Of a stretch of 43,862 nt of DNA, positions 21,260 to 41,373 are shown in pieces. Both the position numbers and the translations under genes were made by a program. Origin of the DNA: Puniceicoccaceae bacterium K14 (GTDB lineage Bacteria > Verrucomicrobiota > Verrucomicrobiia > Opitutales > Opitutaceae); contig JAKYXN010000044.1 in the NCBI GenBank assembly GCA_022538095.1, positions 1 through 43,862 on the forward strand, given 5' to 3'. A model generated the notes under the pieces. The model made no database searches and was not told the DNA's origin. It was given only the letters and a program-made list of their open reading frames with translations. The number at the start of each line of letters is the position of its first letter. Position 1 is the stretch's first letter.

Positions 21260-21260
21260 A

Positions 21261-21767: not shown

Positions 21768-21780
21768 CCATTTTTCATTC

Positions 21781-22767: not shown

Positions 22768-22779
22768 TATGACCGAACG

Positions 22780-23673
22780 ATGTTAAGCGTTGTAATTCCC
22801 AGTTACAATCGTTGTGAATCAATGATTCAGTTGCTCAGCGACGTCTATGATCAAAAGGATGCGACGTTTGAAGTTATCGTTGTCGACGACCGTTCCACCG
22901 ATGACTCTGTTAAAGAAATTAAAAAACAATTCCCAGCCGTTAGAGTTTTTGTGAACGCAGTCAACAGTGGCCCATCAGTAACTCGAAACCGTGGCATAAA
23001 AGAAGCAATCGGAGAAATTATTGTCGGCTTTGACAGCGATGTGACAGTGCCAGACAAATTCTGTCTCAAAAAAATTGTAGAGGAATTTAAGAACTTTCCA
23101 CATATTGATGCGTTGGCCTTTCGTCTCCTGCAGCCCGATCAAACAACCGATGATTTTGCCAGGTGGTGGCACCCTCTCGACTGTAGAGCTTTCTCAAAAC
23201 AAAAATTCTTAACAGATTATTTTAGTGGAACGGGATATGCGTTCGTAAAAGCAAAAATCGAAGAAGCCGGCGCTTTTCCCGAATATTTATATATGCACTA
23301 TGAGGAAGTTATCCTTGCACTCTGTGCTATAGACAATGGCCAGATGATCCAATACACACCAAGTATAGAGGTAGTTCACCATGAAGGCCAGGTATCTCGC
23401 AGAACTGAAATTAAGGCATTTTACAAACACCGAAATCAATTGCTCCTAGCCTACCTCCACTACCCTGTATTCAAAGCTCTAAAATACGTATTACCACGAA
23501 CAGCAAAAGCGTTTCTAGACTCAATTACGAACAATAGCGTAAAGTCATACTTTAAAGCACTAAGGTCAGCACCTCAAGTAGTCAAAGACCACAGCCTTAA
23601 ACGAGCGCCAATCAAGAGGAAAACACTCAAGATCCTTAACTCATATCGCAAAGCTACCGTATCAAAGCCATAA
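22780..23673 (+). CDS. GT2 glycosyltransferase
   Basis: The 297-residue GT2 enzyme starts directly with MLSVVIPSYNRCESMIQLL, continues VIVVDDRSTDDSVKEI, SGPSVTRNRGIKEA and the DXD motif IVGFDSDVTV, with the acceptor-side MHYEEVILALCAIDNG block. The C-terminal 70 residues are basic, likely membrane-associating. It lies 12 bases after the previous transferase, so cotranscription is likely. The sugar is unknown. Confidence 0.88.
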   Translation: MLSVVIPSYNRCESMIQLLSDVYDQKDATFEVIVVDDRSTDDSVKEIKKQFPAVRVFVNAVNSGPSVTRNRGIKEAIGEIIVGFDSDVTVPDKFCLKKIVEEFKNFPHIDALAFRLLQPDQTTDDFARWWHPLDCRAFSKQKFLTDYFSGTGYAFVKAKIEEAGAFPEYLYMHYEEVILALCAIDNGQMIQYTPSIEVVHHEGQVSRRTEIKAFYKHRNQLLLAYLHYPVFKALKYVLPRTAKAFLDSITNNSVKSYFKALRSAPQVVKDHSLKRAPIKRKTLKILNSYRKATVSKP

Positions 23674-23695
23674 ATAGCTAAAGAAAAAAACTGAT

Positions 23696-25774: not shown

Positions 25775-25782
25775 TACCTAGT

Positions 25783-26949
25783 ATGCGAAAGTTACGACTA
25801 CTCTATAGTTTTCCTCATAGAATTGGAGCGGGCAGAATATGCGATACAGCATATGAGCAAGTAAAAGCTCTTACAAAAAAGAATATAGACGTCACCCTTT
25901 TCACCGCTTCCGTAGCGAGAGAAGTACCGGCTAAAGCAAAAACGGTAAAAACTCTTTCCATCGGTAAATTTCGACTACCTGTAAGACTGTTGGGCCGCAA
26001 CAAAACCTGTGCCCTTCATGACTACATCGTATCGAAATGGATCGAAAAACATCACGATGAGATAGATGTTATCCATTGCTGGCCACTTGGATCAATTCGT
26101 ACGATCCGTACAGCAAATCGATTCAATATCCCAACTCTTATGGAGCGTCCCAATGCACATACCCAATTCGCGTTTCAGAGAGTCGAAGACGAAAGTAAGA
26201 AACTCGGGATAGCACTCCCCAAGGAACACGATCACGCATTTAACAACGAAACCTTAGAGATAGAAAACGCCGAATACAACGAAGCCACTTTCTTACTCTG
26301 CCCATCTGAGTTTGTTAAGAAGACTTTTTTGGATAAAAACTTTAAAGAGAGTAAAATCCTAAGACATCGCTATGGCTGTGACTTGGACATTTTCAGTCCA
26401 TCGAAAAATCAACCCGAATCGCGGGGCCTCAAAGCTATATACGTCGGTGCTTGCGAGCCCCGTAAAGGTCTACACTATGCCCTAGAAGCTTGGAAAAAAT
26501 CGGACGCAAGCAGAGATGGAGAACTCCTTATATGCGGCAAATTTGTTCCCGAATACGAAGAAAAGGTGCGGAGTCTAATTGATCAACCAAACGTAAAATA
26601 CCTTGGCCAGCGTAGCGACATTGGAGAACTAATGAAAAACTCAGATGTGTTTTTACTCCCGTCTGTCGAAGAAGGGAGTGCACTCGTAACCTATGAAGCC
26701 CGAGCTTCTGGTTGCGTATTATTAGTATCCGATTCATGCGGGGCTGTTTGTGAGCATGAGCATGACGGCATAATCCATGATTCCGGCGAATCAGACTCTA
26801 TTACAACTTATTTAAATCTATTGCAAAACGATCAAGCGCTATTACAAAAATTAAGGCATAATTCGCTTGAAGAACGTCATACGTTGAGTTGGGACTATGG
26901 TGTGGATATGCTATTTAATTGCTACCATGAAGCATGCTCAACTAAATGA
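25783..26949 (+). CDS. GT4-type glycosyltransferase
   Basis: The 388-residue GT-B enzyme has the C-terminal nucleotide-sugar half with YVGACEPRKGLHYALEAW, LICGKFVPEYEEKV and the EX7E motif in EEGSALVTYEARASGC. The N-terminal acceptor half includes LYSFPHRIGAG and IHCWPLGSIRT. It follows the secreted-protein gene by eight bases, so it is probably in the same transcript. Retaining transfer to the glycan is expected; the sugar is unknown. Confidence 0.85.
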   Translation: MRKLRLLYSFPHRIGAGRICDTAYEQVKALTKKNIDVTLFTASVAREVPAKAKTVKTLSIGKFRLPVRLLGRNKTCALHDYIVSKWIEKHHDEIDVIHCWPLGSIRTIRTANRFNIPTLMERPNAHTQFAFQRVEDESKKLGIALPKEHDHAFNNETLEIENAEYNEATFLLCPSEFVKKTFLDKNFKESKILRHRYGCDLDIFSPSKNQPESRGLKAIYVGACEPRKGLHYALEAWKKSDASRDGELLICGKFVPEYEEKVRSLIDQPNVKYLGQRSDIGELMKNSDVFLLPSVEEGSALVTYEARASGCVLLVSDSCGAVCEHEHDGIIHDSGESDSITTYLNLLQNDQALLQKLRHNSLEERHTLSWDYGVDMLFNCYHEACSTK

Positions 26950-26968
26950 GCCCCACTAAAGCTGATAA

Positions 26969-28264
26969 ATGACTCCCATAGGTCTTCTACTATTCTTTTT
27001 TTGTAGTGTCTTTATTCTTTTAAGCAGTAAGAATAAAGCCCCACTCGTGATTATTGTTTCATGCTGTTATATAACTGTTGGGCAAGGCATATCAATCGCC
27101 GGTGCGAATTTTCCTGCGTTTAGATTTATTATAGCATTAGGCGTATTGAGAACTCTAATGCGCGGCGAGCGCCTAAGTGACGGACTAAAACTACCAGACA
27201 AAGTAATGGTCCTCTGGGCTATCTGGTCAATGTTCGCAAGTTTCCATCACGAGTTCACCGCTGGGTCAGGTCCAAAATTTACTGCTGGCGTCATAGTCGA
27301 CCTGGTTGGTTCCTACTACCTCTTCAGGGTTTTTCTCTCAAATTTTGACGAGACAATCTCATTCATAAAATCGACTAGTATGCTTCTTGCACCAATAGCT
27401 TTGTTTATGTTCGTAGAACAGGCTATTAACTATAACATTTTTTCTTCATTTGGGTACGTGCCTGAGCACCCCATTATTCGAGACGGTAGAACGCGTGCTC
27501 AAGGCCCTTTCAGTCACCCAATTCTTGCAGGTTCAATCGGCGCTGCTTTTTTCCCACTGGCAATAGCCATTTGGAATAGTAACAGAAAAACGAGCATAAT
27601 TGGCATAATATCGTCTACAACAATTGTAATTGCGTCAGCATCTAGCGGCCCAATACTAAGCCTCGGAGCAGGGATCAGTGCATTGCTATTTTGGCGGTAT
27701 AGACAATTCACCAAGAAAGTATTTTATCTAAGCATAGTCGGGTACATTTTTCTCGATTTTGTGATGAACAAACCTGCTTACTATTTGATATCGCGAATAG
27801 ACCTTACCGGCTCAAGCACAGGATGGCACAGGTCTTTTTTAATTGATCAAACGATAAAGTATTTCAACGAGTGGTGGCTCTTCGGCACCGATCGCACTGT
27901 TCACTGGATGCCAATGCAAGGCAGGATTTCTGAAAATCATACCGACATCACAAATTACTACATACAATTCGGCGTCAACGGCGGATTAATGAGTATGGCG
28001 CTAATACTCACAGCTATATTTCTAGCATTAAAATACGTATCAATATTTTCAATATCCGACAACTCGGGCTACAAACAATTTATTATCTGGGGTATCGGTT
28101 GCAGTATCTTTGCGAATTCAGCCACATCGGTCTCAGTCTCGTTTTTTGGTCAATCTCAAGTGTTTTTCTGGATCCCCATCGCTATAGTCACTACATTGGC
28201 ATCAATGAAGACTGATAACGACTCAATCATCGACGCGGAATATGCTACGGATTATCAAACTTGA
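26969..28264 (+). CDS. O-antigen polymerase/ligase-like membrane protein (Wzy/WaaL family)
   Basis: The 431-residue protein is strongly hydrophobic with about ten membrane segments. The large periplasmic loop region carries RAQGPFSHPILAGSIGAAFF, the Arg/His-bearing signature seen in O-antigen ligase/polymerase proteins, and a later loop with HRSFLIDQTIKYFNEWWLFG. Wzy polymerises lipid-linked repeat units on the periplasmic side; WaaL ligates chains to an acceptor; the two cannot be separated by reading alone. Locus context favours Wzy. The last 23 bases overlap the following acyltransferase gene. Confidence 0.82.
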   Translation: MTPIGLLLFFFCSVFILLSSKNKAPLVIIVSCCYITVGQGISIAGANFPAFRFIIALGVLRTLMRGERLSDGLKLPDKVMVLWAIWSMFASFHHEFTAGSGPKFTAGVIVDLVGSYYLFRVFLSNFDETISFIKSTSMLLAPIALFMFVEQAINYNIFSSFGYVPEHPIIRDGRTRAQGPFSHPILAGSIGAAFFPLAIAIWNSNRKTSIIGIISSTTIVIASASSGPILSLGAGISALLFWRYRQFTKKVFYLSIVGYIFLDFVMNKPAYYLISRIDLTGSSTGWHRSFLIDQTIKYFNEWWLFGTDRTVHWMPMQGRISENHTDITNYYIQFGVNGGLMSMALILTAIFLALKYVSIFSISDNSGYKQFIIWGIGCSIFANSATSVSVSFFGQSQVFFWIPIAIVTTLASMKTDNDSIIDAEYATDYQT

Positions 28265-28826
28265 AAACACCCTTCTTAATTTAATCCACCGAAAGAACTT
28301 AATTAAGTCACGGCTGTATCTTTTATTTGCTCGCGACGCATTTAATTTTATCGGTAAGAAGACTACGATTGAACTCCCGATAAAAATCTGGAGTCCACTA
28401 AGCATTTATATCGGAAACAACGTCTTCATTGGTCAAGGTTCATGGCTAGAGACAATTGCCCCCGAAGTCAGTGTCACCAAGCTAAAAATAATGGACGGAG
28501 TTTCCATATCTGGCTACATAACCATTACTGCTGCGAAATCTGTAACAATCGAAGAAAACGTTTTAATAGCGAAAAACGTACATATCTCCGACCACAGTCA
28601 TGATTTCTCGGATACGCAAGTACCGATAAAGCATCAAGGTATCACCACTCCCAAACCCGTATCCATTGGCGAGGGTTCCTGGATAGGACAAGGTGCTATA
28701 ATCTGCCCGGGGACAAAAATCGGGAAGAACTGCGTAATCGGAGGCAATTCAGTAGTCAAGGGAGATATACCCGATTACACCCTTGCAGCCGGATCGCCCG
28801 CTAAGGTCATACGCTCTTTAAAATGA
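28242..28826 (+). CDS. Hexapeptide-repeat acyltransferase (LbH), second copy
   Basis: The 194-residue protein shows left-handed beta-helix repeats: LSIYIGNNVFIGQG, VTIEENVLIAKNVHISDHSHDF, VSIGEGSWIGQGAIICPGTKIG and the end AAGSPAKVIRSLK. The HSHDF element is the catalytic-loop feature of the maltose/WcaF-type acetyltransferases. It overlaps the Wzy-like gene by 23 bases and the next glycosyltransferase by four (ATGA), so all three are translationally linked. It is not a close copy of the enzyme at 21261 and likely acetylates a different position. Confidence 0.87.
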   Translation: MLRIIKLENTLLNLIHRKNLIKSRLYLLFARDAFNFIGKKTTIELPIKIWSPLSIYIGNNVFIGQGSWLETIAPEVSVTKLKIMDGVSISGYITITAAKSVTIEENVLIAKNVHISDHSHDFSDTQVPIKHQGITTPKPVSIGEGSWIGQGAIICPGTKIGKNCVIGGNSVVKGDIPDYTLAAGSPAKVIRSLK

Positions 28827-30130
28827 AAGCTACAGACATTATTTTTATTACGCACTTTTTCCCTCCGATCGGTGGAGCTGGTGTTCAAAGGTCATCTAAA
28901 TTCGTAAAATATCTCCCAGAGTTCGATTTTCGCCCTCTCGTACTCACAAGCCAACTACACAAAATCTCAAGATGGAGTCCCAAGGATGAATCACTCGTTC
29001 TAGACGTCAAAAACAACAATAGCATTTTCCGTCTACCAGAAGACGCAGACACATTACCAAAAGATAATACAGCAGAAAACCCCTCGAGAACAAAAGCTAT
29101 ATACAAATTAGGGCTTCAGATAGCCAAAGAAAACAACCCCAAGCTAATATATGTATCAATTTCACCATTTGGCGATCTTTGTGGAGCCATAAAGCTCTCC
29201 AAGGAATTGAACCTTCCTTTGATTGCTGATTTAAGAGATCCATGGGCTTTGGACGAATTCCAAACATACCGATCTTTTTACCACAAGCGAAAAGCGATCG
29301 AGGCCATGCACAGCAGCCTAGTTGAGTGCGATTCTATTATTATGAATACACCAACAGCTACCGATTCATTAAAATCAAACTTCCCAGACTTCACTTCCAA
29401 AAAAATATTCACGATCACAAACGGATACGACCAAGAAGACTTTGAACATTCTCAATCTAAGGGAGAGCTTTGCTCCGATAAATTCAATATAGTCCACTCC
29501 GGAACCTTTCATACCGCATACGCAATCAAACAAAGAAAAAGGAAATTGCTAGATATTGCCCTAGGCAGGAGGACTAGAGGAATAGACGTTAAAGGCCGCA
29601 CTCCGTACTACCTTTTTGAAGCATTGAAAAATATCCAAAAAACGGCTCCTGAAAAATTCACTAAAATCGCCACAACCTTCACCGGAGTGACAGCAGCGGA
29701 AGATGAAAAATTAATTGATAGCTACAATTTAAACAGTACTGTAAATTCGACTGGATACATCAATCACCAAAAAAATATTCATCTTTTAAAATCCGCCAAT
29801 TTGCTATTTCTTCCCATGCATGGACTCCCTTCAAACGTGTCCGCATCAATAGTGCCTGGCAAAACCTACGAATACCTCGCTTCAAACATTCCTATTCTCG
29901 CAGCTGTGCCAAGCGGTGATACAAAAACGTTTATAGAAGATTCCAATTCCGGATACACTTGCAACCCAAGCGACGTTTCGAGAATTGAGAAAATCATAAT
30001 CCAAGAATTTGACAAATGGCAAGAGGGACATCCTTCCCACAATGGCAACCTAAACTATATTCAACGATTTGAACGTAAAGAGTTAACAAAAAAGTTGGCG
30101 GATGCATTTTCGGAAACTATCTCTGCGTAA
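28823..30130 (+). CDS. GT-B glycosyltransferase (divergent)
   Basis: The 435-residue product begins IIFITHFFPPIGGAGVQRSSKFVKYL, the glycine-rich GT-B N-terminus, and has ADLRDPWALDEF and a C-terminal half with GKTYEYLASNIPILAAVP. The usual EX7E motif is replaced by VPGKTYEYLA with only the second Glu, as in a subset of GT-B family members. Its start overlaps the acyltransferase stop (ATGA). Donor and acceptor are unknown; transferase activity is likely but less certain than for its neighbours. Confidence 0.78.
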   Translation: MKATDIIFITHFFPPIGGAGVQRSSKFVKYLPEFDFRPLVLTSQLHKISRWSPKDESLVLDVKNNNSIFRLPEDADTLPKDNTAENPSRTKAIYKLGLQIAKENNPKLIYVSISPFGDLCGAIKLSKELNLPLIADLRDPWALDEFQTYRSFYHKRKAIEAMHSSLVECDSIIMNTPTATDSLKSNFPDFTSKKIFTITNGYDQEDFEHSQSKGELCSDKFNIVHSGTFHTAYAIKQRKRKLLDIALGRRTRGIDVKGRTPYYLFEALKNIQKTAPEKFTKIATTFTGVTAAEDEKLIDSYNLNSTVNSTGYINHQKNIHLLKSANLLFLPMHGLPSNVSASIVPGKTYEYLASNIPILAAVPSGDTKTFIEDSNSGYTCNPSDVSRIEKIIIQEFDKWQEGHPSHNGNLNYIQRFERKELTKKLADAFSETISA

Positions 30131-30176
30131 CATCAACCAGGTCATGGCAATACCATTTCTGAAAACCTAAATCATT

Positions 30177-31343
30177 ATGGATCCCGCTGCAAACTCTGTA
30201 AGTATACTTCTTCCCATATCCGGCATAATGAGCGAAATTTGGGTTAAGCGACAAGCAGAGTCATTTAACGTGCTAACGCCGCGTCTGATCTCATGGGAAT
30301 GTCAAAAAAATCCAGCTTGGAAGCTCAACAATCTAGATTCCACCTTAAACGTTTCCTGGAACGAGCCTCGAAAACCTTTAACAAAATTCTTAGACAAGCT
30401 CGGAATAGACGCCTCATCTAGTGGACTTAAGACTAATGATGCTTTAAACCATTTACTCTGCGGCGAAATTCCCTCAGCTGCCATTTGCCACTTCGGATGG
30501 ACAGCCGCTAAATCTTATCGCTTCTTAAGGTCTAAAAATATTCCTTATTATGTAATTTTTCACGGCCTAGACTTATCGATACCGAGACTAAAAGGTTCTT
30601 ACTTGAAAAACTTAAGAAATGCGATGTGCCATGCATCGGGCTGTATCATAGTCGGTTCCCATATGAAAAAAATCCTCTTGGACATTTGCCCAACACTTGA
30701 CCAGGGTAGAATTCATCAAATACCTTGTGGAGCCCCCTTGGACAAGTTTTGTAACCGTCCGCAGCCCCAAAGACAAAAAGACGAACCTCTGAAGCTTATT
30801 ACAGTTGGTCGATTAGTACAGGGAAAGGGAATAGATTTATGCATTGAAGCGCTTAAACTAGTTCGATCTCAAAATGCGAATGTCACGCTCTCAGTCATTG
30901 GCGACGGAGATCAAAAGGAACACCTTGAAGGAATTTCTAAATCTCATGATCTCGATAAGATCGTTAGTTTTCTTGGACGAAAAACCCCAGAAGAAATAGC
31001 TCATTTACTTTCTAATCACCATGTGCTGATTCAGCCATCCAGAAACGCAACAAACGGCTGGGTCGAAGGTTTTGGAGTCTCAATTACAGAAGCAATGGCC
31101 TCTGCCTTACCCGTTATTGCTAGTAAAACAGGTGGCATACCAGACCAAGTTCAAAACGAGAAAAACGGATTTCTTTTCGAAAGTGAAGACTATGACAGTC
31201 TCGCAGACAGAATCATGAGATACCAGAACGACGAATTATTGAGGTTTTCACATGGCACATCAGCACGAAATCAATCGAAAAATTTCGACGCCAAAAACCT
31301 AAGTAGACAATTAGAAAACATAATTTTGAAAAAATTACGCTAA
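30177..31343 (+). CDS. GT4 glycosyltransferase
   Basis: The 388-residue GT-B enzyme has the C-terminal motifs LITVGRLVQGKGIDLCIEAL, LSVIGDGDQKEHLEG, FLGRKTPEEIA and the EX7E signature EGFGVSITEAMASALP, followed by IASKTGGIPDQVQ. It is a canonical GT4 retaining transferase of usual length. It lies 46 bases after the divergent GT-B gene. Sugar specificity is not readable. Confidence 0.92.
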   Translation: MDPAANSVSILLPISGIMSEIWVKRQAESFNVLTPRLISWECQKNPAWKLNNLDSTLNVSWNEPRKPLTKFLDKLGIDASSSGLKTNDALNHLLCGEIPSAAICHFGWTAAKSYRFLRSKNIPYYVIFHGLDLSIPRLKGSYLKNLRNAMCHASGCIIVGSHMKKILLDICPTLDQGRIHQIPCGAPLDKFCNRPQPQRQKDEPLKLITVGRLVQGKGIDLCIEALKLVRSQNANVTLSVIGDGDQKEHLEGISKSHDLDKIVSFLGRKTPEEIAHLLSNHHVLIQPSRNATNGWVEGFGVSITEAMASALPVIASKTGGIPDQVQNEKNGFLFESEDYDSLADRIMRYQNDELLRFSHGTSARNQSKNFDAKNLSRQLENIILKKLR

Positions 31344-31404
31344 CGGCTTCTTTGGCCGCAAAGCACACCGATAATGCTAACTTAGCTAATAACAATCTGC
31401 AATT

Positions 31405-32952
31405 TTGAAAAATAGCGACAGCTCTACAACCAGCGAAAATTCTGAAGAACCAAAGGACCAATTCGAGACCAAGCATCTCAACAAAGACTTGAAATCTCGA
31501 TCTGTAAAAAATGGTGCTATCGTAATTTCTTCTCAAGGTTTTCGTTTCGTAGCTACGACTCTCTCTGGCGCAGTTTTAGCTCGTTTGCTTATGCCTGAGG
31601 ATTTCGGCCTTATCGCAATGACAGCGTCTATACTTGCCTTCGTATACCTGTTGCAAGATGCCGGCTTAGCGATGGCAACCGTACAAAAGGATGAAGTAAA
31701 CCACGAACAAGTATCTACTCTGTTCTGGCTAAACTTAGCGATAACTACAATTTTAGCAATTTTAACGATTGTCTGTTCACCTTTAATCGCAGAACTGTAT
31801 GGCGACCCAAGACTTAAAGACATTACGATCGCTCTTGCGATTCCCTTGCTGATTGGAGGCCTAACGTCACAGCACAGTGCACTATTAACGCGCCAACTAA
31901 AATTCAAGGTTCTTCAAATAGCGTCTCTATCCGGTCTAGTTTTTGGAATTGCTGTAGCCATTATTTCAGCACTTAACGGAGCAAGCTATTGGGCATTAGT
32001 TTACCAGCGCATTGCCTCAGCATCCCTTACCTGTGCACTAATGTGGATTTTCGCAAAATGGATACCAGGAAAGCCAACCTCTGGCACAGGCGCTTTATCA
32101 ATGCTTAAATTTGGAGCCAACCTAAGCTTAGCTCAATTAATTGCTACAATGATAAGAAACCTAGACAATATTCTGCTAGGAAAGTTTGCCGGCTCAGCAT
32201 CATTGGGATTCTATTCGAAATCATACGGCCTATTAATGCTACCGATCACGCAAATGAACGGACCAGTATCCAAAGTTGCGATACCAACATTAAGTAGACT
32301 TCAAAACGACCCAGAAAAATATCGGAACTATTTTTGCAAAGGTATCTCGATGTTGGTTTTCTTTGGAATGCCCCTAATCGGAACCTTCTTCGTATTCGCA
32401 GACACAATTATAAACATAATGCTCGGCTCCAATTGGTCTGATTCGATTATCCTCTTTAGGTTGCTAGCTCCAGCTGCTCTCATTGGCACTTTCAATGTCG
32501 CAGCTAGTTGGCTATTCATTCCGACTGGGCGGACAAATAGCATGCTCAATGCAAGCCTTATAGCGGGAGCCATAACGATTATCGGCTTCTTAATCGGCAT
32601 TCAATGGGGCGCAAAAGGCATCGCAATTTCCGTTAGCTGTACATCTTGTATCAGTATTGTTCCTGTCTTAATGATGGCGACTCACAAAAATCACGTTTCG
32701 CTGTTAGACATATTCACCTCAATCTGGCACCCAGCCTTTGCTACAATTTCGACCTCTGCTGCGATTTTCTATGTAAAGTACTATTCACCAATTCAATCCA
32801 ACAACGTGGTCGGAATCATAATTTTAGGTCTAGGTTATGTTCTAACATACTCATTGATATTCGTCATACTGCCTGGATCGAAGACACACATCAGCAACGC
32901 TAAAAATATCCTAGAAACCCTCTTGAAACGAAAAGCGGGGAAAACAGCGTAA
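31405..32952 (+). CDS. Wzx-like polysaccharide flippase (MOP superfamily)
   Basis: The 515-residue membrane protein has a polar N-terminal stretch (about 1-40) and then about 12-14 hydrophobic helices: LLMPEDFGLIAMTASILAF, LARLL, ALTLTRQ-like turns and the GFYSKSYGLLMLPITQM region are typical of the WzxC/Polysacc_synt families. It should flip lipid-linked repeat units to the periplasm. The reading frame starts with TTG at 31405; the first in-frame ATG lies inside the first helix region, so a non-ATG start is needed. No clear Shine-Dalgarno precedes it. Confidence 0.9.
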   Translation: MKNSDSSTTSENSEEPKDQFETKHLNKDLKSRSVKNGAIVISSQGFRFVATTLSGAVLARLLMPEDFGLIAMTASILAFVYLLQDAGLAMATVQKDEVNHEQVSTLFWLNLAITTILAILTIVCSPLIAELYGDPRLKDITIALAIPLLIGGLTSQHSALLTRQLKFKVLQIASLSGLVFGIAVAIISALNGASYWALVYQRIASASLTCALMWIFAKWIPGKPTSGTGALSMLKFGANLSLAQLIATMIRNLDNILLGKFAGSASLGFYSKSYGLLMLPITQMNGPVSKVAIPTLSRLQNDPEKYRNYFCKGISMLVFFGMPLIGTFFVFADTIINIMLGSNWSDSIILFRLLAPAALIGTFNVAASWLFIPTGRTNSMLNASLIAGAITIIGFLIGIQWGAKGIAISVSCTSCISIVPVLMMATHKNHVSLLDIFTSIWHPAFATISTSAAIFYVKYYSPIQSNNVVGIIILGLGYVLTYSLIFVILPGSKTHISNAKNILETLLKRKAGKTA

Positions 32953-32985
32953 GCAAATTAGCATCAGCCAAGCTAACTTACGGAC

Positions 32986-33969
32986 ATGAAAGCAAGCATC
33001 ACAATTTTAATAGCAACCTACAATCGAGAGTCTGTCTTACACAAAACCCTAGAAAACCTCAAGAACTTGGACACAACCGGCTTGGAGCTAAGCATTGTCG
33101 TAGTCGATAACAATAGCTCAGACGGCACAGCTGAATTAATTAAGTCTTATCAATCCAGTCTACCCTTAACTTATCTGTTTCAGTCAAAGCCCGGAAAAAA
33201 TAGAGCTCTTAATTTAGCCTTAGATACCATTGAGCTAGGTGATATTATTCTGTTTACAGATGACGATGTGATGCCAACTAAGCAATGGCTGCGTTCAATT
33301 GTAGACTCTACGGAAAAGTATCAGGATAAATCAATTTTTGGCGGTCCTGTTCACATGCTATGGCCAGAAAATTCGCCTCAGTGGGCCAAAGACCTTGAGA
33401 GGGACATTTACCCACAGCATGACTATGGTAACTCACCAAAAGTGTACGAGGGTGGAGTCACTCCAATAGGACCCAACTTCTGGCTAAGAAAAAAAATCAT
33501 AACAGAAGGCCAATTTCGCTATGATGAATCAATAGGCCCCACCCCAGATTCAAAAAAAAGAATAATGGGCAGCGAAACTTCCTTTCTTTATATGCTCATA
33601 AATAATGGGTATTCAATACAATACGTGCCAGGAAACAGCGTTGGACACTATGTTACTGAAGACCAAATAACTGAGAAGTACATAATGAAAAGAGCAAGCA
33701 CCCATGGTCGGTTCTTAGCACACATAGGAAAAGCATTCGATAACCTTAAACTATACAAAAAAAATATAGTATTATGGAAATTGCTAAAACTCGCCTCGCT
33801 ATTAAAAAATCGTGCTCTGTTTCAGATGGCCTATCTCTCCAGCAATAAAAGCATTCGACTCAAAAAACAGATCAATGCGAAACGTTGGATTGCATATAAC
33901 GAATCTTATATATCAGATCACAATAACATTTCTCAAAGAAGCACCCAAACGAACCTTTCGATACTATGA
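32986..33969 (+). CDS. GT2 glycosyltransferase
   Basis: The 327-residue GT-A enzyme begins ITILIATYNRESVLHKTLENL and has SIVVVDNNSSDGTAEL, GKNRALNLALD and the metal motif LFTDDDVMP. A Trp-rich acceptor segment (MLWPENSPQWAKDLERDI) follows. The end is basic and hydrophobic. It overlaps the next transferase gene by four bases (ATGA at 33966-33969), so the two are coupled. Confidence 0.9.
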   Translation: MKASITILIATYNRESVLHKTLENLKNLDTTGLELSIVVVDNNSSDGTAELIKSYQSSLPLTYLFQSKPGKNRALNLALDTIELGDIILFTDDDVMPTKQWLRSIVDSTEKYQDKSIFGGPVHMLWPENSPQWAKDLERDIYPQHDYGNSPKVYEGGVTPIGPNFWLRKKIITEGQFRYDESIGPTPDSKKRIMGSETSFLYMLINNGYSIQYVPGNSVGHYVTEDQITEKYIMKRASTHGRFLAHIGKAFDNLKLYKKNIVLWKLLKLASLLKNRALFQMAYLSSNKSIRLKKQINAKRWIAYNESYISDHNNISQRSTQTNLSIL

Positions 33970-35003
33970 ACCATGATGCCAGCAAAGGACCCAGGATATC
34001 GATTATTATCCCCACATATAAAGCTGAGTCCCATATAGAACGATGTATCCGATCAATTTTTAGCCAATCTTTTACTGACTTTGAGATAATCGCCATAAAC
34101 GATGCCTCCCCCGATAATTCGCTTAAAAAATTAGCGAAACTAAGAAATGAAGACAGTAGACTTATCATTATCGATAAGAAAGAGAACGGAGGGGTGCACC
34201 AAGCCCGTGCAGATGGAGTTGATGCAGCCAAAGGTGCGTTTATAACTTTTGCGGACTCTGATGATTGGTATGAAAAAGACTTTCTAAACGTCCTCAACGA
34301 TTCCATCATAGAACACGATGCCGAAATTGCCCTATGCGGCGTTAGGTTGGTAAACGCTGAAGGAAAGAAAACAGATAATAAAGTAAGTTTACCGAATGCA
34401 TGTTTCAAAGGTTCCGAAGGCTATGAAAAATTCTGCAACCTAGAATTAGGAACAGGCTCTCTTTGGAATAAATTGTACAGCAGCCACTTAATCAAAGAAT
34501 TTGGCTCAAAACATTGGGGATGGCGTGCCGACGCAGCCGAAGACACCCTAGTGAACATCGGTTGCTTTCAAAGAGCGAAAACGATCAGCACATGCTCAAG
34601 GACCCTTTATAATTATGTCATACACTCAGAAAATGCTACACAAACCGCCGGAAACGCGCTCAGCTATGCTAGAATACTAAGGGCTTACGCATCTGCTATT
34701 GATATATACCGTGAATTCGACGAACTAGAATTAAAATCGATCGATACAATATACCGAAAACAGCTGAACATGCCTTGCTATCACGTAACCTCTTCAGAAT
34801 GCTTAACGGACCACAAAACCATTTTAGAAGAGTCCATTCAAATTCTCGCAGAACTTAGACCTAGTGCACTTTATGAATTCGCAAATTTCGGAATTTCCTG
34901 TCCTGAATCCTCAATTCTGCACGAGTCCTCCAAGAATCAAATGCTTTGGACACTCCGTCGAGCACTCAGAAAAGTTAAGAAAATTTTCAGACCGATAAAA
35001 TAG
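33966..35003 (+). CDS. GT2 glycosyltransferase
   Basis: The 345-residue GT2 enzyme shows ISIIIPTYKAESHIERCIRSI, EIIAINDASPDNSLKKL, GGVHQARADGVDAAKG and the metal motif ADSDDWYEKDF, followed by GTGSLWNKLY. This is the CpsI/EpsJ-type GT2 layout. It shares four bases with the preceding GT gene. The sugar is unknown. Confidence 0.9.
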   Translation: MNHDASKGPRISIIIPTYKAESHIERCIRSIFSQSFTDFEIIAINDASPDNSLKKLAKLRNEDSRLIIIDKKENGGVHQARADGVDAAKGAFITFADSDDWYEKDFLNVLNDSIIEHDAEIALCGVRLVNAEGKKTDNKVSLPNACFKGSEGYEKFCNLELGTGSLWNKLYSSHLIKEFGSKHWGWRADAAEDTLVNIGCFQRAKTISTCSRTLYNYVIHSENATQTAGNALSYARILRAYASAIDIYREFDELELKSIDTIYRKQLNMPCYHVTSSECLTDHKTILEESIQILAELRPSALYEFANFGISCPESSILHESSKNQMLWTLRRALRKVKKIFRPIK

Positions 35004-35053
35004 TTGATTAACACATTATCCATCGTTATCAATTCAGGCCGTAAATACTTCGG

Positions 35054-36043
35054 ATGGAAGAATTGCCTCTAATCACTATACTAACTCCTGTCTATAACGG
35101 TGAGAGTTGTTTAAGAAACTGCATCGAAAGCGTAATAAACCAATCTTATAAAAATTGGGTTTACGTTATCATTGATAACCAAAGCACAGATAAAACTAAG
35201 GAAATAGCCCAAAGCTACGCAGACAACGACAGTCGCATTGTCATAAAAAAGACTCCGAATTTCATTACTTCGGTTCAAAACCACAACTTCTCTCTGCAGC
35301 AAGTAGCCCCAGATAGTAAATACATAAAAATCGTTCATGCTGACGACTGGATATTCCCAGAATGCATCGAAAAGATGGTAGAAATTGGGGAAAACTTTCC
35401 GAGGGTTGGTTTAATCGGATCATATAGACTTGATGGAAAAAATGTTGGACACAATGGACTTCCTCACCCTTCGGAAACAACATCCGGAAAAGAAATCGGA
35501 CGAGGTGTTTTTTTAGCAAAATACGAACTATTTGGGAACCCGACCTCTACAATGTTTAGGAGAGCTGCGATTAGTCGTGATAGGGATTTTTTTAATGAAA
35601 ACAACATCCACTACGACACAGAAGCGTGTTTCCAAGTTTTATCAGAATGGGACTTCGGATTCGTCCACCAGGTATTGACAAAAACCACCAGGCACGAAGG
35701 TTCAATTACATCGAAAATCGACAACTTAAACACCCGATTCTTAGGAAGCCTAACCTGCCTATATCACTTTGGTGAAAAATTTTTCAGCCAAGAAGAACTA
35801 ACACGGTTAAAAAAAAGATACCGAGCTACATACTATCATCGATACGCCAAAGGTATCTTAAAACACTACAATGCCGATATGGTTAAATACCACAAAAATG
35901 AGAGGAAAAAAATCGGCTTAAAAATTAGCAGACTAAGAGTGCTTTTAAACATTGTCGGTATTATAATTGAAACTCTGATCGACGAAAAAAAATGGAAAAA
36001 GAAACTTTTCAAACATCCTCCCCTGAGCCAAGAATTCGAATAA
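35054..36043 (+). CDS. GT2 glycosyltransferase
   Basis: The 329-residue GT2 enzyme begins LITILTPVYNGESCLRNCIES, has YVIIDNQSTDKTKEIA and a metal-site segment IKIVHADDWIFPECIEK in which the first Asp of DXD is Ala, as is common (HADDW). The C-terminal 90 residues are basic and partly hydrophobic. It follows the previous GT by 50 bases and precedes the oxidoreductase gene by nine. Confidence 0.88.
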   Translation: MEELPLITILTPVYNGESCLRNCIESVINQSYKNWVYVIIDNQSTDKTKEIAQSYADNDSRIVIKKTPNFITSVQNHNFSLQQVAPDSKYIKIVHADDWIFPECIEKMVEIGENFPRVGLIGSYRLDGKNVGHNGLPHPSETTSGKEIGRGVFLAKYELFGNPTSTMFRRAAISRDRDFFNENNIHYDTEACFQVLSEWDFGFVHQVLTKTTRHEGSITSKIDNLNTRFLGSLTCLYHFGEKFFSQEELTRLKKRYRATYYHRYAKGILKHYNADMVKYHKNERKKIGLKISRLRVLLNIVGIIIETLIDEKKWKKKLFKHPPLSQEFE

Positions 36044-36052
36044 CGCATTAAT

Positions 36053-37459
36053 ATGCAGTACGATGTAATTATCATAGGCTCGGGCTTTGCATCGATGTTT
36101 TTTTTACAAGGACTCCTTGATAAAAAGAATAGCCCTAAAAGGATATTAATAATTGAAAAAGGCGCCAACGAACCCCACTTCGAAAGGCTTGCAAAAAGAC
36201 GATTCATACAATGGTCAGAAACAAGCACACAAACGATAACTAACAATACCCCCGAAAAGCCTTGGACATACAGCATCGCTTACGGAGGAGGATCAAATTG
36301 CTGGTTCGGAAGTACTCCAAGAATATTACCAAACGGTTTTAAAACTAAAACTGATTTTGGAATCGGCCAGGATTGGCCAATAGACTATAACACTCTAGAA
36401 CAATACTACACAAAAGCAGAAGGCATCCTCGAAGTATCTGGAGGAGAGACGCCCTACCCAAAATCTGCACCCTACCCTCTTCCCGCACACAGGCTTTCAG
36501 AACCAGATGAAATCCTAAGGGAAGCGTATCCAGAATACTATTTTTCACTTCCTACGGCTCGTGCATCTAGGCCCTCAAAACGCCCACAATGTTGCGGTAA
36601 CGGCGTCTGTTTCCTATGTCCAATCGATTCAAAATTCACGATCGAAAATGGCATGAGGTACGTACGTGATGACTCTAGAATTGAAGTTGTATACAATGCC
36701 TCAGTCAAAAACATATCACACAGTCAGGGAATCGCAAACGGCGTATCCGCAACAATGAAAGACGGAAGTGAAAAGTATTTCAGTGGAGATATTATTGCCT
36801 TAGGTGCAAATGCTATATTCAACCCTTGGATACTATTAAAATCTGGGATCAAAACTCCACAGACCGGCAAGGGGCTTTGTGAACAAGCTGGGGCAGCAAT
36901 TAATGTAAAACTGAAGGGGTTAAAAAATAAACAGGGATCGACAGTTACAACAGGTTGGGGCGTGAAAGACCTTTTTAGCAACGATCGAAGCCAAAGATCC
37001 GGGTTTATGTTCAACACTGTCAACCGCCCTATGAACATCCAACTAGACCCCAACTCCCCCTTCTCACATCTGGAAATAATCGCTTCAATCGAAGATTTTA
37101 GACAGGAGAGAAACAAAGTTACTTTTGACGACAGCGACAAACCCCAAATTGAATTCCATGGCCATTCTGAATTTGCAGAAAAAACATTTAAACGGATCGA
37201 GGAATTGGTCGGAGAATTGATAGAACCATTACCAATTGAATCTATAAAATTCTCTCACAGGCGAACAACTGAGTCCCATATACAATGCACGACCCCTATG
37301 GGAGAAAGCCCAGATTCGAGTGTAGCAGACAAATACTGCAAGCATCACAATTTCAGCAACCTTTACGTTTTAGGAAGCGGGAACTTTCCAACAGCTTCAC
37401 CGGAGAATCCAACATTAACAATTTGTGCTTTATCGCTATACGCAGCCGATAATATCTAA
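36053..37459 (+). CDS. GMC-family flavin oxidoreductase
   Basis: The 468-residue product has the FAD dinucleotide fold YDVIIIGSGFASMFF at the N-terminus, YGGGSNCWFGSTPRILP, a Cys-rich patch QCCGNGVCFLCP near residue 180-190, and the GMC C-terminal signature SHIQCTTPMG then ENPTLTICALSLYAADNI, with the catalytic-site His in SHIQ. GMC enzymes oxidise alcohol groups of sugars and alcohols. No signal peptide is present, but the next gene encodes a twin-arginine-signal protein, so export as a complex is possible. It is the penultimate gene of the glycan locus. Confidence 0.83.
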   Translation: MQYDVIIIGSGFASMFFLQGLLDKKNSPKRILIIEKGANEPHFERLAKRRFIQWSETSTQTITNNTPEKPWTYSIAYGGGSNCWFGSTPRILPNGFKTKTDFGIGQDWPIDYNTLEQYYTKAEGILEVSGGETPYPKSAPYPLPAHRLSEPDEILREAYPEYYFSLPTARASRPSKRPQCCGNGVCFLCPIDSKFTIENGMRYVRDDSRIEVVYNASVKNISHSQGIANGVSATMKDGSEKYFSGDIIALGANAIFNPWILLKSGIKTPQTGKGLCEQAGAAINVKLKGLKNKQGSTVTTGWGVKDLFSNDRSQRSGFMFNTVNRPMNIQLDPNSPFSHLEIIASIEDFRQERNKVTFDDSDKPQIEFHGHSEFAEKTFKRIEELVGELIEPLPIESIKFSHRRTTESHIQCTTPMGESPDSSVADKYCKHHNFSNLYVLGSGNFPTASPENPTLTICALSLYAADNI

Positions 37460-37463
37460 AAAA

Positions 37464-37919: not shown

Positions 37920-38870
37920 CTACCTACCCCTCAAAATGTTAACTATCTTTTTTGGGAGGACTCTCTTAACCAATCGCTTGGCTCCCCCCACTACAATATC
38001 ATTCTTTTGGTGAAGGGTCCAAGAATCCACACAGAAAACAGGACGTTTCGTCAATCTGTGAATCTCTGAAGCTTGCCAGCTCTCACTCTCATAAAAGAGG
38101 CGAAAATCCGACAACTCATCGTACATTTTGGCCTTATGAGGAATATGGAGTTTTAAGCGTCTTCGTTCCTCGGCCGTATCCACGTCAATCATTCTCAGAT
38201 CTCGGAACTTTATTCCGTGCTTATTCATCCACTCAACAGTTGCATCGCGATATTTCTCCAAACGCGATGTTACGAGACAACCGATCTCGAACTTAGGAAT
38301 AAACTTTGGAGGGGCATTTAAGATAAAATTCATGTATTTTTCACCATCGTCATTATCTTCTGGCGAAGGGTCATCACAAAGAACTCCGTCAATATCGACA
38401 CAAGACCATTCCATTATTGGGTGGTTCATTATATTCCACTCAAAAAGCCTAGGAACATTAATCACCTTCCCGTAATAATCTACTCGATCCAATACACTCT
38501 CCGTTGCGATCGGCACAAAAGTCAAAATTTCGACGTCGCGATCTTCCAATTTAAGCGATTCTTTAGCCATCTCGAGGCTGATCCCCGAGTGAATACTGTC
38601 ATCTACTAGCAAGACTTTCCTCGCCTCGTTTGGATATTCAACTCCTCCACCCAAACTCATACGCTGGCTCTTCCAAACTTTGACATTCGCATTAAACCCT
38701 GCCAAATCACTCAATGGCTTGTTCAGAAAGGTTGAAAGCATATTCGCCGCCAAGAGGCCGCTTCTAGGAATCCCAACCACTAAATCAATGTCATTCGGAA
38801 GTTTTGCAGCTGCCGACAAAACAAGATCGCTAAGATCTTGAAATTTTAAGAATGTAATTCGTGAAGCCAT
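37920..38870 (-). CDS. Phosphoribosyltransferase-HAD fusion protein
   Basis: The 316-residue protein has two joined domains. The N-terminal half is a type I phosphoribosyltransferase with VGIPRSGLLAANML and the PRPP motif VLLVDDSIHSG (Asp90-Asp91). The C-terminal half from about residue 155 is HAD-like: CVDIDGVLCD gives Asp159 and Asp161, VTSR at about 200 fits motif II and a Lys-rich stretch follows. It converges on the glycan locus, ending 51 bases from the Tat-signal gene, and shares a 401-base divergent control region with the isochorismatase-like gene. The reaction is unknown; nucleotide or sugar-phosphate chemistry is a reasonable guess. Confidence 0.78.
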   Translation of the reverse strand: MASRITFLKFQDLSDLVLSAAAKLPNDIDLVVGIPRSGLLAANMLSTFLNKPLSDLAGFNANVKVWKSQRMSLGGGVEYPNEARKVLLVDDSIHSGISLEMAKESLKLEDRDVEILTFVPIATESVLDRVDYYGKVINVPRLFEWNIMNHPIMEWSCVDIDGVLCDDPSPEDNDDGEKYMNFILNAPPKFIPKFEIGCLVTSRLEKYRDATVEWMNKHGIKFRDLRMIDVDTAEERRRLKLHIPHKAKMYDELSDFRLFYESESWQASEIHRLTKRPVFCVDSWTLHQKNDIVVGGAKRLVKRVLPKKIVNILRGR

Positions 38871-39271
38871 ACTTATTTGTAATCGCCCAATATCAACATA
38901 AGAAAATTTGACATGTCAACCTATACCCAAATCAAGTTAACCAATAAATAAAGTCTGCATAAACTACCTAGCAAAAATAACTTATGGCCTGGAGTCTTCC
39001 AACTACCTAAAACTCTAAGTAGATACACTTAACTTCATTATTTTTTGATATATTGTTTTAAGTTAGTGCTAATTATATTTTCTATTATTTTACTTTTGTT
39101 CTCCACTTAAGATCACTTGATATCAAAATCTATACATTACCCTTTGAAAACAAAAATCTTCATAATATAATATTTTTGATAAATCCCCCAAATTTCTATC
39201 ATCGACAAGTGAATGCCCCTTCATATTGGTAAAGCTCAATATTTTACCGCAATAAGATTAAACTATTAAAC
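38871..39271. promoter_or_regulatory. AT-rich divergent control region
   Basis: This 401-base gap between two divergent genes has no ORF. It is conspicuously AT-rich with long A/T runs. It contains two perfect palindromes of the form TTGA...TCAA: TTGACATGTCAA at 38908-38919 (38 bases from the PRTase-HAD start) and TTGATATCAA at 39117-39126. A further inverted pair, GGTAAA (39228-39233) and TTTACC (39243-39248), lies 24 bases before the isochorismatase-like start. These could be operators; no clear -10/-35 pair was assigned. Confidence 0.5.
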
Positions 39272-40342
39272 ATGCCGGACAACCATAAGGCCGCTAACGA
39301 AATTCTCAACTCTGTCGCCTTGCTGGTGATCGATGCCCAAGACGTTTTCATAGACACAATTCACAACCGCGAAGAGTTTCTAATGCGCACAGCATTTGTG
39401 ATCGAAGCTGCACGTACTCTGAGAATAAAGACAATATTTACCGAGCAAGTACCTAACCGCCTCGGACGCACAAACTCACGCCTCTATAGTTTAGCGAGAA
39501 AGCCTAAGGTTTTTTCAAAAAATTCTTTCTCGGCCCTCAAGTCAAACGGCATTGAACAGTACCTTAAGAACCAGGAAGTCTACAACTTAATCGTTTGCGG
39601 TTTGGAGACTCCTATCTGCATCTATCAAACAGTTCTAAATGCCGAAGAAATCGATATTGACTGCACCGTCCTAACAGACGCACTCGGATGCAGAAGAGAA
39701 AAAGATGGAGAGCAAGTTCTAGAAGCGATGAGAAAGCTCAACTGCGAATTGCTTCCATCCGAATCAGTGTTTTACAGCCTCTTATCGGATACAATCCACC
39801 CACTGTTCAAGCAATTCAACAACCTAGTTTCAAACTACGCAAAACGAGAATTTGACGAGAATTACTTCAAAGGTTCTAGCAACCAAAACTCGCAAAATAT
39901 TGAGAAATCCAAGCACCGAAACGAAAAACCTTTCTCTCGCAAGAATCGTTTCGATTCCCAAAACTCAGAGAACAACAAAAAAGTTGATGCAGCACCTGAA
40001 GAGCCGAGCAAAGAAAAGCCAGTTTCTAGCACCCCAACTAAAGCAGTAGATTCCCCAAACACGCCAGACTCAAATCGGAAAGCAGAAGTAAAGCAAAGTG
40101 AACTATCACTACCAACAAAAGAGCACAAATCTGAATCTGCTGCAGAAGCCGATTCACTCACTAAGGAGCCTGCGAAGAAAAAGGCAAAGAAAGCAGCCAA
40201 ACGCATAGCCAAAAAAGCCGCCAAGAAAATCACTAAGAAAACGACAAAAAAGGCAACTAAACGGGTAGCAAAGAAGACTGCTGCGAAATCCTCCGAAAAG
40301 CCCACGCAAGCATCAGAAGAAAACTTACCGCAAACGGACTAA
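39272..40342 (+). CDS. Isochorismatase-fold hydrolase with histone-H1-like tail
   Basis: The 356-residue protein has two unlike parts. Residues about 15-175 form a cysteine hydrolase of the isochorismatase family with the expected triad Asp21 (LVIDAQD), Lys83 (FSKNSF) and Cys116 (TPICIYQT). Residues about 190-300 are a polar Ser/Glu/Lys linker. Residues about 301-342 are almost entirely Lys and Ala with Thr, in repeats like KKAAKK and ITKKTTKKATK, the composition of histone H1 C-termini and bacterial H1-like proteins. The tail should bind nucleic acid or polyphosphate. The 3' end overlaps convergent tsaD by four bases. Confidence 0.85.
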   Translation: MPDNHKAANEILNSVALLVIDAQDVFIDTIHNREEFLMRTAFVIEAARTLRIKTIFTEQVPNRLGRTNSRLYSLARKPKVFSKNSFSALKSNGIEQYLKNQEVYNLIVCGLETPICIYQTVLNAEEIDIDCTVLTDALGCRREKDGEQVLEAMRKLNCELLPSESVFYSLLSDTIHPLFKQFNNLVSNYAKREFDENYFKGSSNQNSQNIEKSKHRNEKPFSRKNRFDSQNSENNKKVDAAPEEPSKEKPVSSTPTKAVDSPNTPDSNRKAEVKQSELSLPTKEHKSESAAEADSLTKEPAKKKAKKAAKRIAKKAAKKITKKTTKKATKRVAKKTAAKSSEKPTQASEENLPQTD

Positions 40343-41373
40343 CTGATTTTCTGTTCGATTGTAAGCCCAGGTAGAATATCGCTTTCGAAGGCATTTTCTG
40401 CACAATTATCGAACACATGACTAAAGGCGATCATGCCCGCATTATCGCCCGTATGTTTTCTCTGAGCCAAGAAGCACTCTACTTTCGATTTCTTAGCTAA
40501 ACCCTCAAACCGACTTCTCAACAATTGATTATTGGATACCCCTCCTGACAAGCCGATACTACGAAAAGCATCAGTTTTTAATGCCTTGGAGGCTTTTCGT
40601 ATCAAGGCATCCACAACAGCTTCTTGGTAAGAAGCGCAAATATCAGCCAAGCCAGAATCGATTTCTGAATCATCAAGTTTATCTAAAGCATACCTCAAAC
40701 TAGTCTTCAGCCCGGAAAAACTAAAATCAAAGTTTGGTTTGTGCAATAAGGCTCTTGGAAAATCATAGGCATTTGAATCACCTTTTTGAGACCATTCTTC
40801 CATCTTAGGTCCCCCTGGATAGCCTAGCCCGAGAAGCTTCGCCCCTTTATCCAAGGCCTCTCCCGCTGCATCGTCTATCGTCTGACCTAGAACTCGAATC
40901 TGGCGATCACCATCAATTGAGGCCAATATCGTATTTCCGCCAGAAACGATTAGCGAAAGATGAGGAAGTAGCTTTTCGACCTCCAAGTCAAAATCACTCG
41001 GACCATCTTCGTATTTAGAAATAAATACAGAATGAGCATGTGCTCTCAAATGATTAACTGGGCGTACAGGAGCTCCCAAAGCTACCGACAAAGAATCAGC
41101 AACAGCAATACCCATTGCTAAACATCCAGCTAAACCCGGTCCAACAGTTACCGCGATCTCAGTTATGACATCCAAGCCAAACTTAGTTTCCATTTCGCTC
41201 AACAGAGGCCCAAAATTGTTTAAGTGCTCCCGACTAGCGAGGTCAGGCACAACACCACCGTATTCTGCATGTAAGGCAATTTGCGTACTCACCCATTCAC
41301 CAACCAACCCCCTCTCACGATCAAAAAGAGCGATAGCAGACTCGTCGCACGAACTCTCAATTCCTAGTATCAT
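40339..41373 (-). CDS. tsaD: tRNA N6-adenosine threonylcarbamoyltransferase (TsaD)
   Basis: TsaD completes the t6A modification at position 37 of ANN-decoding tRNAs, an essential step in translation fidelity. The 344-residue ASKHA-fold product shows MILGIESSCDES, the metal-binding HLRAHAHS (HxxxH), LIVSGGNT, DDAAGEALDKGAKLLG and LSGGVSNNQLLR. It is full length and complete. It follows the S41 protease gene by 11 bases, so the two are probably cotranscribed. Confidence 0.96.
   Translation of the reverse strand: MILGIESSCDESAIALFDRERGLVGEWVSTQIALHAEYGGVVPDLASREHLNNFGPLLSEMETKFGLDVITEIAVTVGPGLAGCLAMGIAVADSLSVALGAPVRPVNHLRAHAHSVFISKYEDGPSDFDLEVEKLLPHLSLIVSGGNTILASIDGDRQIRVLGQTIDDAAGEALDKGAKLLGLGYPGGPKMEEWSQKGDSNAYDFPRALLHKPNFDFSFSGLKTSLRYALDKLDDSEIDSGLADICASYQEAVVDALIRKASKALKTDAFRSIGLSGGVSNNQLLRSRFEGLAKKSKVECFLAQRKHTGDNAGMIAFSHVFDNCAENAFESDILPGLTIEQKIS

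Follow-up and report, generated by a model that had tools for sequence, protein, structure and literature searches.

A long basic tail on an ISOC/MAR1-group cysteine hydrolase in one lineage of Opitutales, with a possible tie to RNA turnover

Why should an isochorismatase-fold hydrolase carry a C-terminal extension with the composition of a histone H1 tail? The question is raised by an open reading frame in the genome of Puniceicoccaceae bacterium K14, within a stretch of 43,862 nucleotides (contig JAKYXN010000044.1) that was analysed as a whole and is called the window here. A preliminary description had read this frame as a complete Asp-Lys-Cys hydrolase joined through a polar linker to about 40 residues of Lys/Ala/Thr repeats, and had proposed for it a nucleoid-associated or polyphosphate-linked metabolism.

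The fused protein and its structural relatives

The frame (39272-40342, + strand) is a single ORF of 356 amino acids that runs from an ATG to a stop codon without an internal stop. Its residues 16-164 match the Pfam family Isochorismatase, PF00857 (E 2.2e-25, 90.2 bits against a cut-off of 27), and it is the only match to that family in the genome at E <= 0.001. Residues D21, K83 and C116 were invariant in 19/19 and then in 44/44 aligned sequences; the hydrolase is complete, as first described, and the three residues are expected from the family to be catalytic. AlphaFold2 was run on an alignment of 44 sequences, namely the window sequence and 43 of the 80 named loci described below, with one locus (L041) excluded because its contig ends within the tail. 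The resulting model is confident over the core, with 10-residue block means of pLDDT of 96-98 for residues 11-190; the block means of the residues after the core are 47-65, which predicts disorder. The ORF is an isochorismatase-fold hydrolase followed by 166 disordered residues, and the fusion is real. A frameshifted or non-coding tail was ruled out by its recurrence in 26 genomes with pN/pS below 1, and an antisense ORF at 39862-40305 was taken as spurious, being a mirror of the Lys codons. The features of the locus, in window coordinates, are:

39144..39171, + strand: sigma-70-like promoter match TTGAAA-16-TATAAT (11/12), about 100 bases 5' of the start codon
39272..39841, + strand: isochorismatase-fold hydrolase domain, residues 1-190, from PF00857, AlphaFold2 pLDDT and matches to ISOC/MAR1 structures
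39332..39334, + strand: codon of the putative catalytic Asp, D21, invariant in 44/44, role expected from the family
39518..39520, + strand: codon of the putative catalytic Lys, K83, likewise
39617..39619, + strand: codon of the putative catalytic Cys, C116, likewise
39842..40168, + strand: polar mixed-charge linker, residues 191-299, predicted disordered (pLDDT block means 47-65)
40169..40288, + strand: histone-H1-like Lys/Ala/Thr block (40 residues), aligned along its 40 residues in a search with the tail of a relative
40289..40342, + strand: short polar/acidic end and stop codon, the last 20 residues having a net charge of -2 (translation, charge scan)
40339..41373, - strand: tsaD, convergent neighbour that overlaps the end of the hydrolase gene by 4 bases (TIGR03723, 342.9 bits against a cut-off of 296.1)

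Four sigma-70-like sites occur in the region, a number not above that of shuffled sequences (mean 2.6, sd 2.0). The likeness to histone H1 is one of composition: at E <= 1, Pfam returned only PF00857 and a sub-threshold match to PF09419, in a search whose HMMER filters can hide low-complexity matches.

The first six profile matches in the PDB were 2b34 (1.6e-32), 8rl0, 8rkz, 1yzv, 1x9g and 1xn4, and the same six head the VIA structure list. On structure comparison, 142 of 1000 chains reached Z >= 8 with the isochorismatase-like superfamily on top, and the nearest solved folds were those of the ISOC/MAR1 group (Z 24-27; 178-185 residues aligned at 25-32% identity). The tailed hydrolase belongs to this group, its closest by both sequence profile and fold. 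Furthermore, the core fell short of the NCBIfam equivalog cut-offs for the nicotinamidase PRK11609 (27.4 against 174 bits), the biuret hydrolase BiuH (26.3 against 370 bits) and YcaC (18.9 against 310 bits). The solved members of the group come from a nematode, protozoa, an oomycete and a fungus, and to our knowledge the group has no agreed substrate. Three of the structures (2b34, 1xn4 and 1x9g) were deposited as MAR1 or putative MAR1 ribonuclease, a name that reportedly stems from a purification from Leishmania tarentolae by Alfonzo in 1998. In the literature, the matches listed contained no account of an isochorismatase hydrolase fused to a lysine-rich or histone-H1-like tail, and those listed for ISOC1 and RNA binding named no enzyme activity in their titles or the opening lines of their abstracts. 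Similarly, searches for isochorismatase together with YhaM and exoribonuclease, and for the structures 8RKZ and 8RL0 by name, returned no text, and isochorismatase was mentioned in none of the matches listed for RNA degradation and YhaM.

Origin and composition of the tail

To place the tail among relatives we used the best 80 of 492 confirmed stretches from a contig scan (the 80 named loci), all with titles that name Opitutae-type or Verrucomicrobia bacteria, Pelagicoccus mobilis (L033) among them, and a family-wide search in which 169 of 252 genomes had the hydrolase at E <= 1e-25. In 141 loci, duplicates included, the tail was all-or-nothing: either at least 103 residues (69 where the contig ends) or 0-8. 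A further 41 loci, partly from genomes seen before, included two with a tail (G225 and G228, chosen for their membership of genus g65) and 39 with 0-3 residues. The basic tail is thereby present in 26/26 gene-bearing genomes of eight genera (g1, g12, g13, g19, g32, g33, g36 and g65), that of G185 being cut by a contig end, and the other relatives that were read reach a stop within 8 residues past the core. The tail therefore has counterparts of the same type in other genera, and the prospect raised at the outset, that the tail might be missing from all relatives, is answered by these 26 genomes. In a sample of the phylum, 105 of 288 genomes had the hydrolase at E <= 1e-20, and among the loci read, a subset of those 105 genomes, none outside the eight genera had a tail. 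Some untailed relatives lie in long frames (up to 815 amino acids), and hidden C-terminal fusions were ruled out there: in the 14 untailed stretches read among 16 fetched, only 0-3 residues follow the core, and the extra length therefore lies upstream.

After identical cores were dropped, the 141 loci gave 107 distinct cores, 25 of them tailed. On the maximum-likelihood tree of these cores the tail needs one change (shuffled mean 22.8), and one change also suffices in 93% of 200 bootstrap trees; the support, 93/89, is below the star threshold of the tool. The tree thus needs a single gain, which would have taken place in one Opitutales lineage, and no loss was seen.

The tail of the window protein reaches a maximum net charge of +11 per 20 residues. 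Among the 25 distinct tails this maximum is at least +10 in 21 and at least +9 in 24, the remaining one (+7) being truncated by a contig end. For comparison, 6 of 696 other ORFs of at least 150 amino acids from the window and the 80 named loci reach +10 and none exceeds it, where the scan covered the whole tail of tailed proteins and the last 120 residues of the 696. Several of these six resemble spurious frames. An Arg-rich block (at least 8 Arg in 16 residues) is present in 14/25 distinct tails; the window tail has no strong Arg block, its best density being 3 in 16. In tails of the Pelagicoccus type (g19) the KKAA block is accompanied by a second block that contains 9-11 Arg in 16 residues, and the tail of L010 has an Arg block, no KKAA block and a net charge of -13. 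Complete tails are 97-256 residues long, and their residues drift while a strongly basic window is kept in 24/25. In 12 close pairs pN/pS was 0.33-0.56 for the tail and 0.09-0.21 for the core; we use these values only as a sign of constraint at the protein level, because several pairs are close to saturation at synonymous sites and the alignment of low-complexity sequence is uncertain. Tandem Repeats Finder gave a single array of two 11-base units, outside the Lys block, and a DNA slippage repeat was dismissed. By its predicted disorder, strongly basic charge and conservation in relatives, the tail would be of a polyanion-binding type, and binding is what we predict for it.

A segment of the form DFSLExYL directly follows the core in many tails of the derived clade (g1, g12, g19 and g65) and is absent from some. 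Its possible counterpart in the window protein is the degenerate REFDENYF at the start of the linker, and the model has a helix at residues 196-200. The segment might serve as a motif for docking or form an additional helix.

When the window tail was used as a query against its own genome at E <= 10, it found the hydrolase itself, a frame of 691 amino acids (8.2e-4) and a frame of 877 amino acids (0.049), and nothing else. The first of these frames is Rho (318.8 bits against a cut-off of 315). The second is a topoisomerase III that carries the block C-terminally (609 bits against a cut-off of 1058, a shortfall due to the locus containing only part of the protein). In the Rho frame (L143:1438-3138) KKAAKK repeats lie close to the N terminus and precede an Arg/Gly/Asn-rich stretch, which is possibly a condensate-forming region. 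A Pelagicoccus-type tail used as a query against 12 genomes at E <= 0.01 matched in 4 of them, at ten places in all: hydrolases and Rho frames account for four each and topoisomerase III frames for two. Of the six non-hydrolase places, four were identified from profile matches and a fifth is the own-genome place whose profile match is given above; the sixth (L176) was assigned solely from its start and the length of its frame. This query had no match in 8 of the 12 genomes, four of which are tailed (G011, G218, G035 and G012). Since it missed the hydrolases of those four, it is insensitive and may have missed other basic tails, and the count of two further proteins, Rho and topoisomerase III, is a minimum.

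Neighbouring genes and the proposed replacement of YhaM by Orn in the window's clade

In relatives, the gene upstream of the hydrolase often encodes a calcineurin-like phosphoesterase, which scores best with the profiles of bacterial Pnkp, ApaH and PrpE and also matches a diadenosine tetraphosphatase structure. The gene downstream often encodes an OB-fold and HD protein with YhaM, a 3'-5' exoribonuclease, as its best profile (162.5 bits against a cut-off of 460) and a match to solved YhaM at E 3.6e-40. None of the equivalog cut-offs for the YhaM and phosphoesterase families is reached by these neighbours, and YhaM below stands for a YhaM-like protein. Among the 80 named loci, 38 have YhaM no more than 400 bases downstream, 40 have a same-strand phosphoesterase no more than 300 bases upstream, and 28 have both; median gaps by tblastn are 23 and 12.5 bases, respectively. 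In three more loci the phosphoesterase match overlaps the start of the hydrolase, which was picked too early. Neither neighbour is within these limits in 30/80, made up of 22 untailed loci, in some of which YhaM is farther off or the flanks are short, and 8 tailed loci of the derived clade.

We then asked how far this pairing extends. In a set of 57 genomes, 39 have the hydrolase (E <= 1e-20) and 30 of these also have YhaM. Within the family the two genes are no more than 1 kb apart in 25/25 genomes with both, and 9/37 family genomes have YhaM with no strong hydrolase match. In the rest of the order they lie within 1.5 kb in 2/5 genomes with both (gaps of 53 and 1449 bases), the other three having them on separate contigs, and across the class and phylum 6 of 79 hydrolase genomes have a YhaM match (E <= 1e-15), none adjoining the hydrolase. 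The pairing therefore characterises the family and is not universal.

In 13 of the 21 sequences compared, the upstream side also bears, on the opposite strand, a member of a conserved family of about 180 amino acids (L034:4167-4715, - strand, and its relatives). The family has no match in Pfam or NCBIfam, and no member was found next to the window's hydrolase gene. On that side the window has a run of polysaccharide-type genes (about 20300-37460), three assigned by Pfam (Alg14-like, hexapeptide transferase and glycosyltransferase) and the others by inspection only; the run may have been inserted in this genome. The gene divergent to the tailed hydrolase encodes a protein of 316 amino acids (37923-38870, - strand), whose only above-cut-off match is to phosphoribosyltransferase PF00156 (1.5e-7, residues 24-133) and which has no NCBIfam match.

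Among the tailed genera, YhaM still adjoins the hydrolase in four (g13, g32, g33 and g36); in g33 two ORFs separate the phosphoesterase from the hydrolase, and in G185 of g32 the contig ends there. No YhaM orthologue was found in 20/20 genomes of g1, g12, g19 and g65, all of which keep the tailed hydrolase. In 17 of these 20 derived genomes there are weak YhaM matches (E 3.5e-7 to 4.8e-4) that cover query residues 104-229 only and lie in frames of 478-573 amino acids; we did not count them as YhaM, and they may be RNase Y. The phosphoesterase has no match in 18/20, with one partial match at 1.2e-18 and one match at 5.0e-6 in the others. Since the hydrolase is kept in all 20 genomes without YhaM, 18 of them also without a phosphoesterase match, it does not need these partners.

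The window itself has a gene for the oligoribonuclease Orn (4328-4921, + strand; 177.9 bits against a cut-off of 106). Orn is present in 19/20 derived genomes as against 0/5 tailed genomes of the YhaM-bearing genera, and over the 57 genomes 45 have YhaM only, 6 Orn only, 6 neither and none both (Fisher p 2.5e-5, uncorrected for relatedness). These data suggest that Orn took over from YhaM while the hydrolase was retained, and the mutual exclusion offers a second testable point on the decay of short RNA in these bacteria. In 18/19 derived-clade genomes compared, tsaD is convergent to the hydrolase, the flank of G223 having no tsaD match; tsaD is at the same place in four untailed loci (L064, L099, L108 and L111).

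What the tail may hold the enzyme to

Based on these results we propose that the tail is a polyanion tether, probably to RNA, on an ISOC/MAR1-group hydrolase tied to RNA turnover, a reading to which we give about an even chance and in which binding is a prediction. One Opitutales lineage would have added a long disordered basic tail, once, to a cysteine hydrolase of this group. The folded core would perform its chemistry through the conserved Asp-Lys-Cys triad, and the tail, with its Lys/Ala block and in 14/25 cases its Arg-rich block, would anchor the enzyme electrostatically on nucleic acid. The likeliest anchor would be RNA or the machinery of transcription and RNA decay, and a similar role is presumed for the basic blocks of this kind that Rho and topoisomerase III have in the same genome. 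In close relatives the gene adjoins others of RNA-degrading type, which makes it probable that the tail keeps the enzyme on RNA or DNA. We favour RNA turnover over the nucleoid or polyphosphate because these neighbours are YhaM-like and ApaH/PrpE/Pnkp-like and because of the Arg-rich blocks; none of the findings points specifically to polyphosphate. From the preliminary description we thus keep the polyanion-binding type of tail, by its likeness to AlgP-type tails and to those on Rho and topoisomerase III, and shift the proposed setting of the enzyme towards RNA. Several findings count against this reading: the derived clade keeps the hydrolase without YhaM, nine family genomes have YhaM with no strong hydrolase match, the pairing is lost beyond the order, 30 of the 80 named loci have neither neighbour at the distances used, the neighbours stay below the equivalog cut-offs, the tail of L010 is net negative and that of the window has no strong Arg block. 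The YhaM partner does not decide between RNA and DNA either, because the Bacillus enzyme reportedly acts faster on DNA oligomers than on RNA (PMC6256023). Turnover of pGpG was dropped as the reason for YhaM, since in the same paper B. subtilis YhaM is reported to be unimportant for pGpG.

A more detailed version of this proposal, which we regard as doubtful, makes the hydrolase an unrecognised part of RNA turnover. It would form a cassette with the ApaH/Pnkp-like phosphoesterase and the YhaM-like exoribonuclease that clears RNA ends or short RNAs, and the tail would keep the hydrolase on RNA after YhaM was exchanged for Orn. If this were true, the target could be, for example, a non-phosphate end modification or a noncanonical cap product.

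Four other readings were weighed. The first, which we consider unlikely, is that the H1-like tail keeps a small-metabolite enzyme on the chromosome, as is thought for PhaF and AlgP tails with granules. The Lys/Ala repeats do resemble those of AlgP, PhaF and H1, and AlgP is reported to have a KPAA tail whose peptides bind DNA and to associate with polyphosphate granules (PMC9239181); a like block also ends the topoisomerase III of this genome. However, the family neighbours are RNA-type enzymes, an Arg-rich block lies beside the Lys block in 14/25 distinct tails, and the basic stretch on Rho combines KKAAKK with Arg, Gly and Asn. It is improbable that the tail is neutral, or a solubility or charge extension with no specific ligand: its fast drift and variable length would fit, but it was gained once and kept in 26/26 genomes with its basic windows and with pN/pS below 1, and the other two proteins found by the tail query in the own genome are both nucleic-acid enzymes. 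More improbable still is an anchor to polyphosphate, or a lysine target of polyphosphate modification, for which the granule association of AlgP and the mixture of acidic, Ser and Lys residues in the tail could be cited; no polyphosphate gene is among the annotated neighbours, and lysine modification would leave the Arg-rich blocks unexplained. Least probable of all is a MAR1-type RNase with the tail as its RNA-binding arm, which the names of the deposited structures and the YhaM neighbours would favour, but the name goes back to the Leishmania purification and a cysteine hydrolase triad is an unusual site for a nuclease.

With one gain and 26 genomes, the lineage offers a clean example of how a disordered tail may have recruited an enzyme to nucleic acid. 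In addition, a bacterial ISOC/MAR1 member that sits beside an exoribonuclease gene and was later tailed is a testable lead to the function of the group.

Compared with the solved ISOC/MAR1 proteins (2b34, 8rkz, 8rl0, 1xn4, 1x9g and 1yzv), the window protein is alike in fold, core length and triad, and in 2b34 the D, K and C and a TEQ-P-LG stretch align with it. In contrast, the solved chains have 192-220 residues, which leaves no room for a long tail, and the window protein has 356. CrcA (PA1677) of Pseudomonas aeruginosa likewise has an isochorismatase-like fold and a link to RNA regulation, as it is reported to bind the RNA regulator Crc (PMC10213629). Its authors sought RNase activity unsuccessfully, which counts against the MAR1-type RNase reading and also against the main proposal. 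CrcA differs in that Ser replaces the catalytic Cys, which is invariant in the tailed hydrolase and its aligned relatives, and because its monomer is 22.4 kDa it has no long tail (PMC10213629). Lys-rich C-terminal tails on bacterial proteins are also described for AlgP and PhaF (Lys-Pro-Ala), for HupB and, as lysine repeats, for actinobacterial TopA (PMC9239181; PMC5676037, PMC7398561). Those tails sit on granule, nucleoid or topoisomerase proteins, whereas the present one is on a cysteine hydrolase, and the KPAA repeats of AlgP differ from the KKAA and Arg blocks found here. Bacteroides Rho, as reported, similarly has a disordered extension on an RNA-related protein (PMC10284900, PMC13269538); Rho is a helicase, with its extension on the N-terminal side in the genome studied here, whereas the hydrolase tail is C-terminal.
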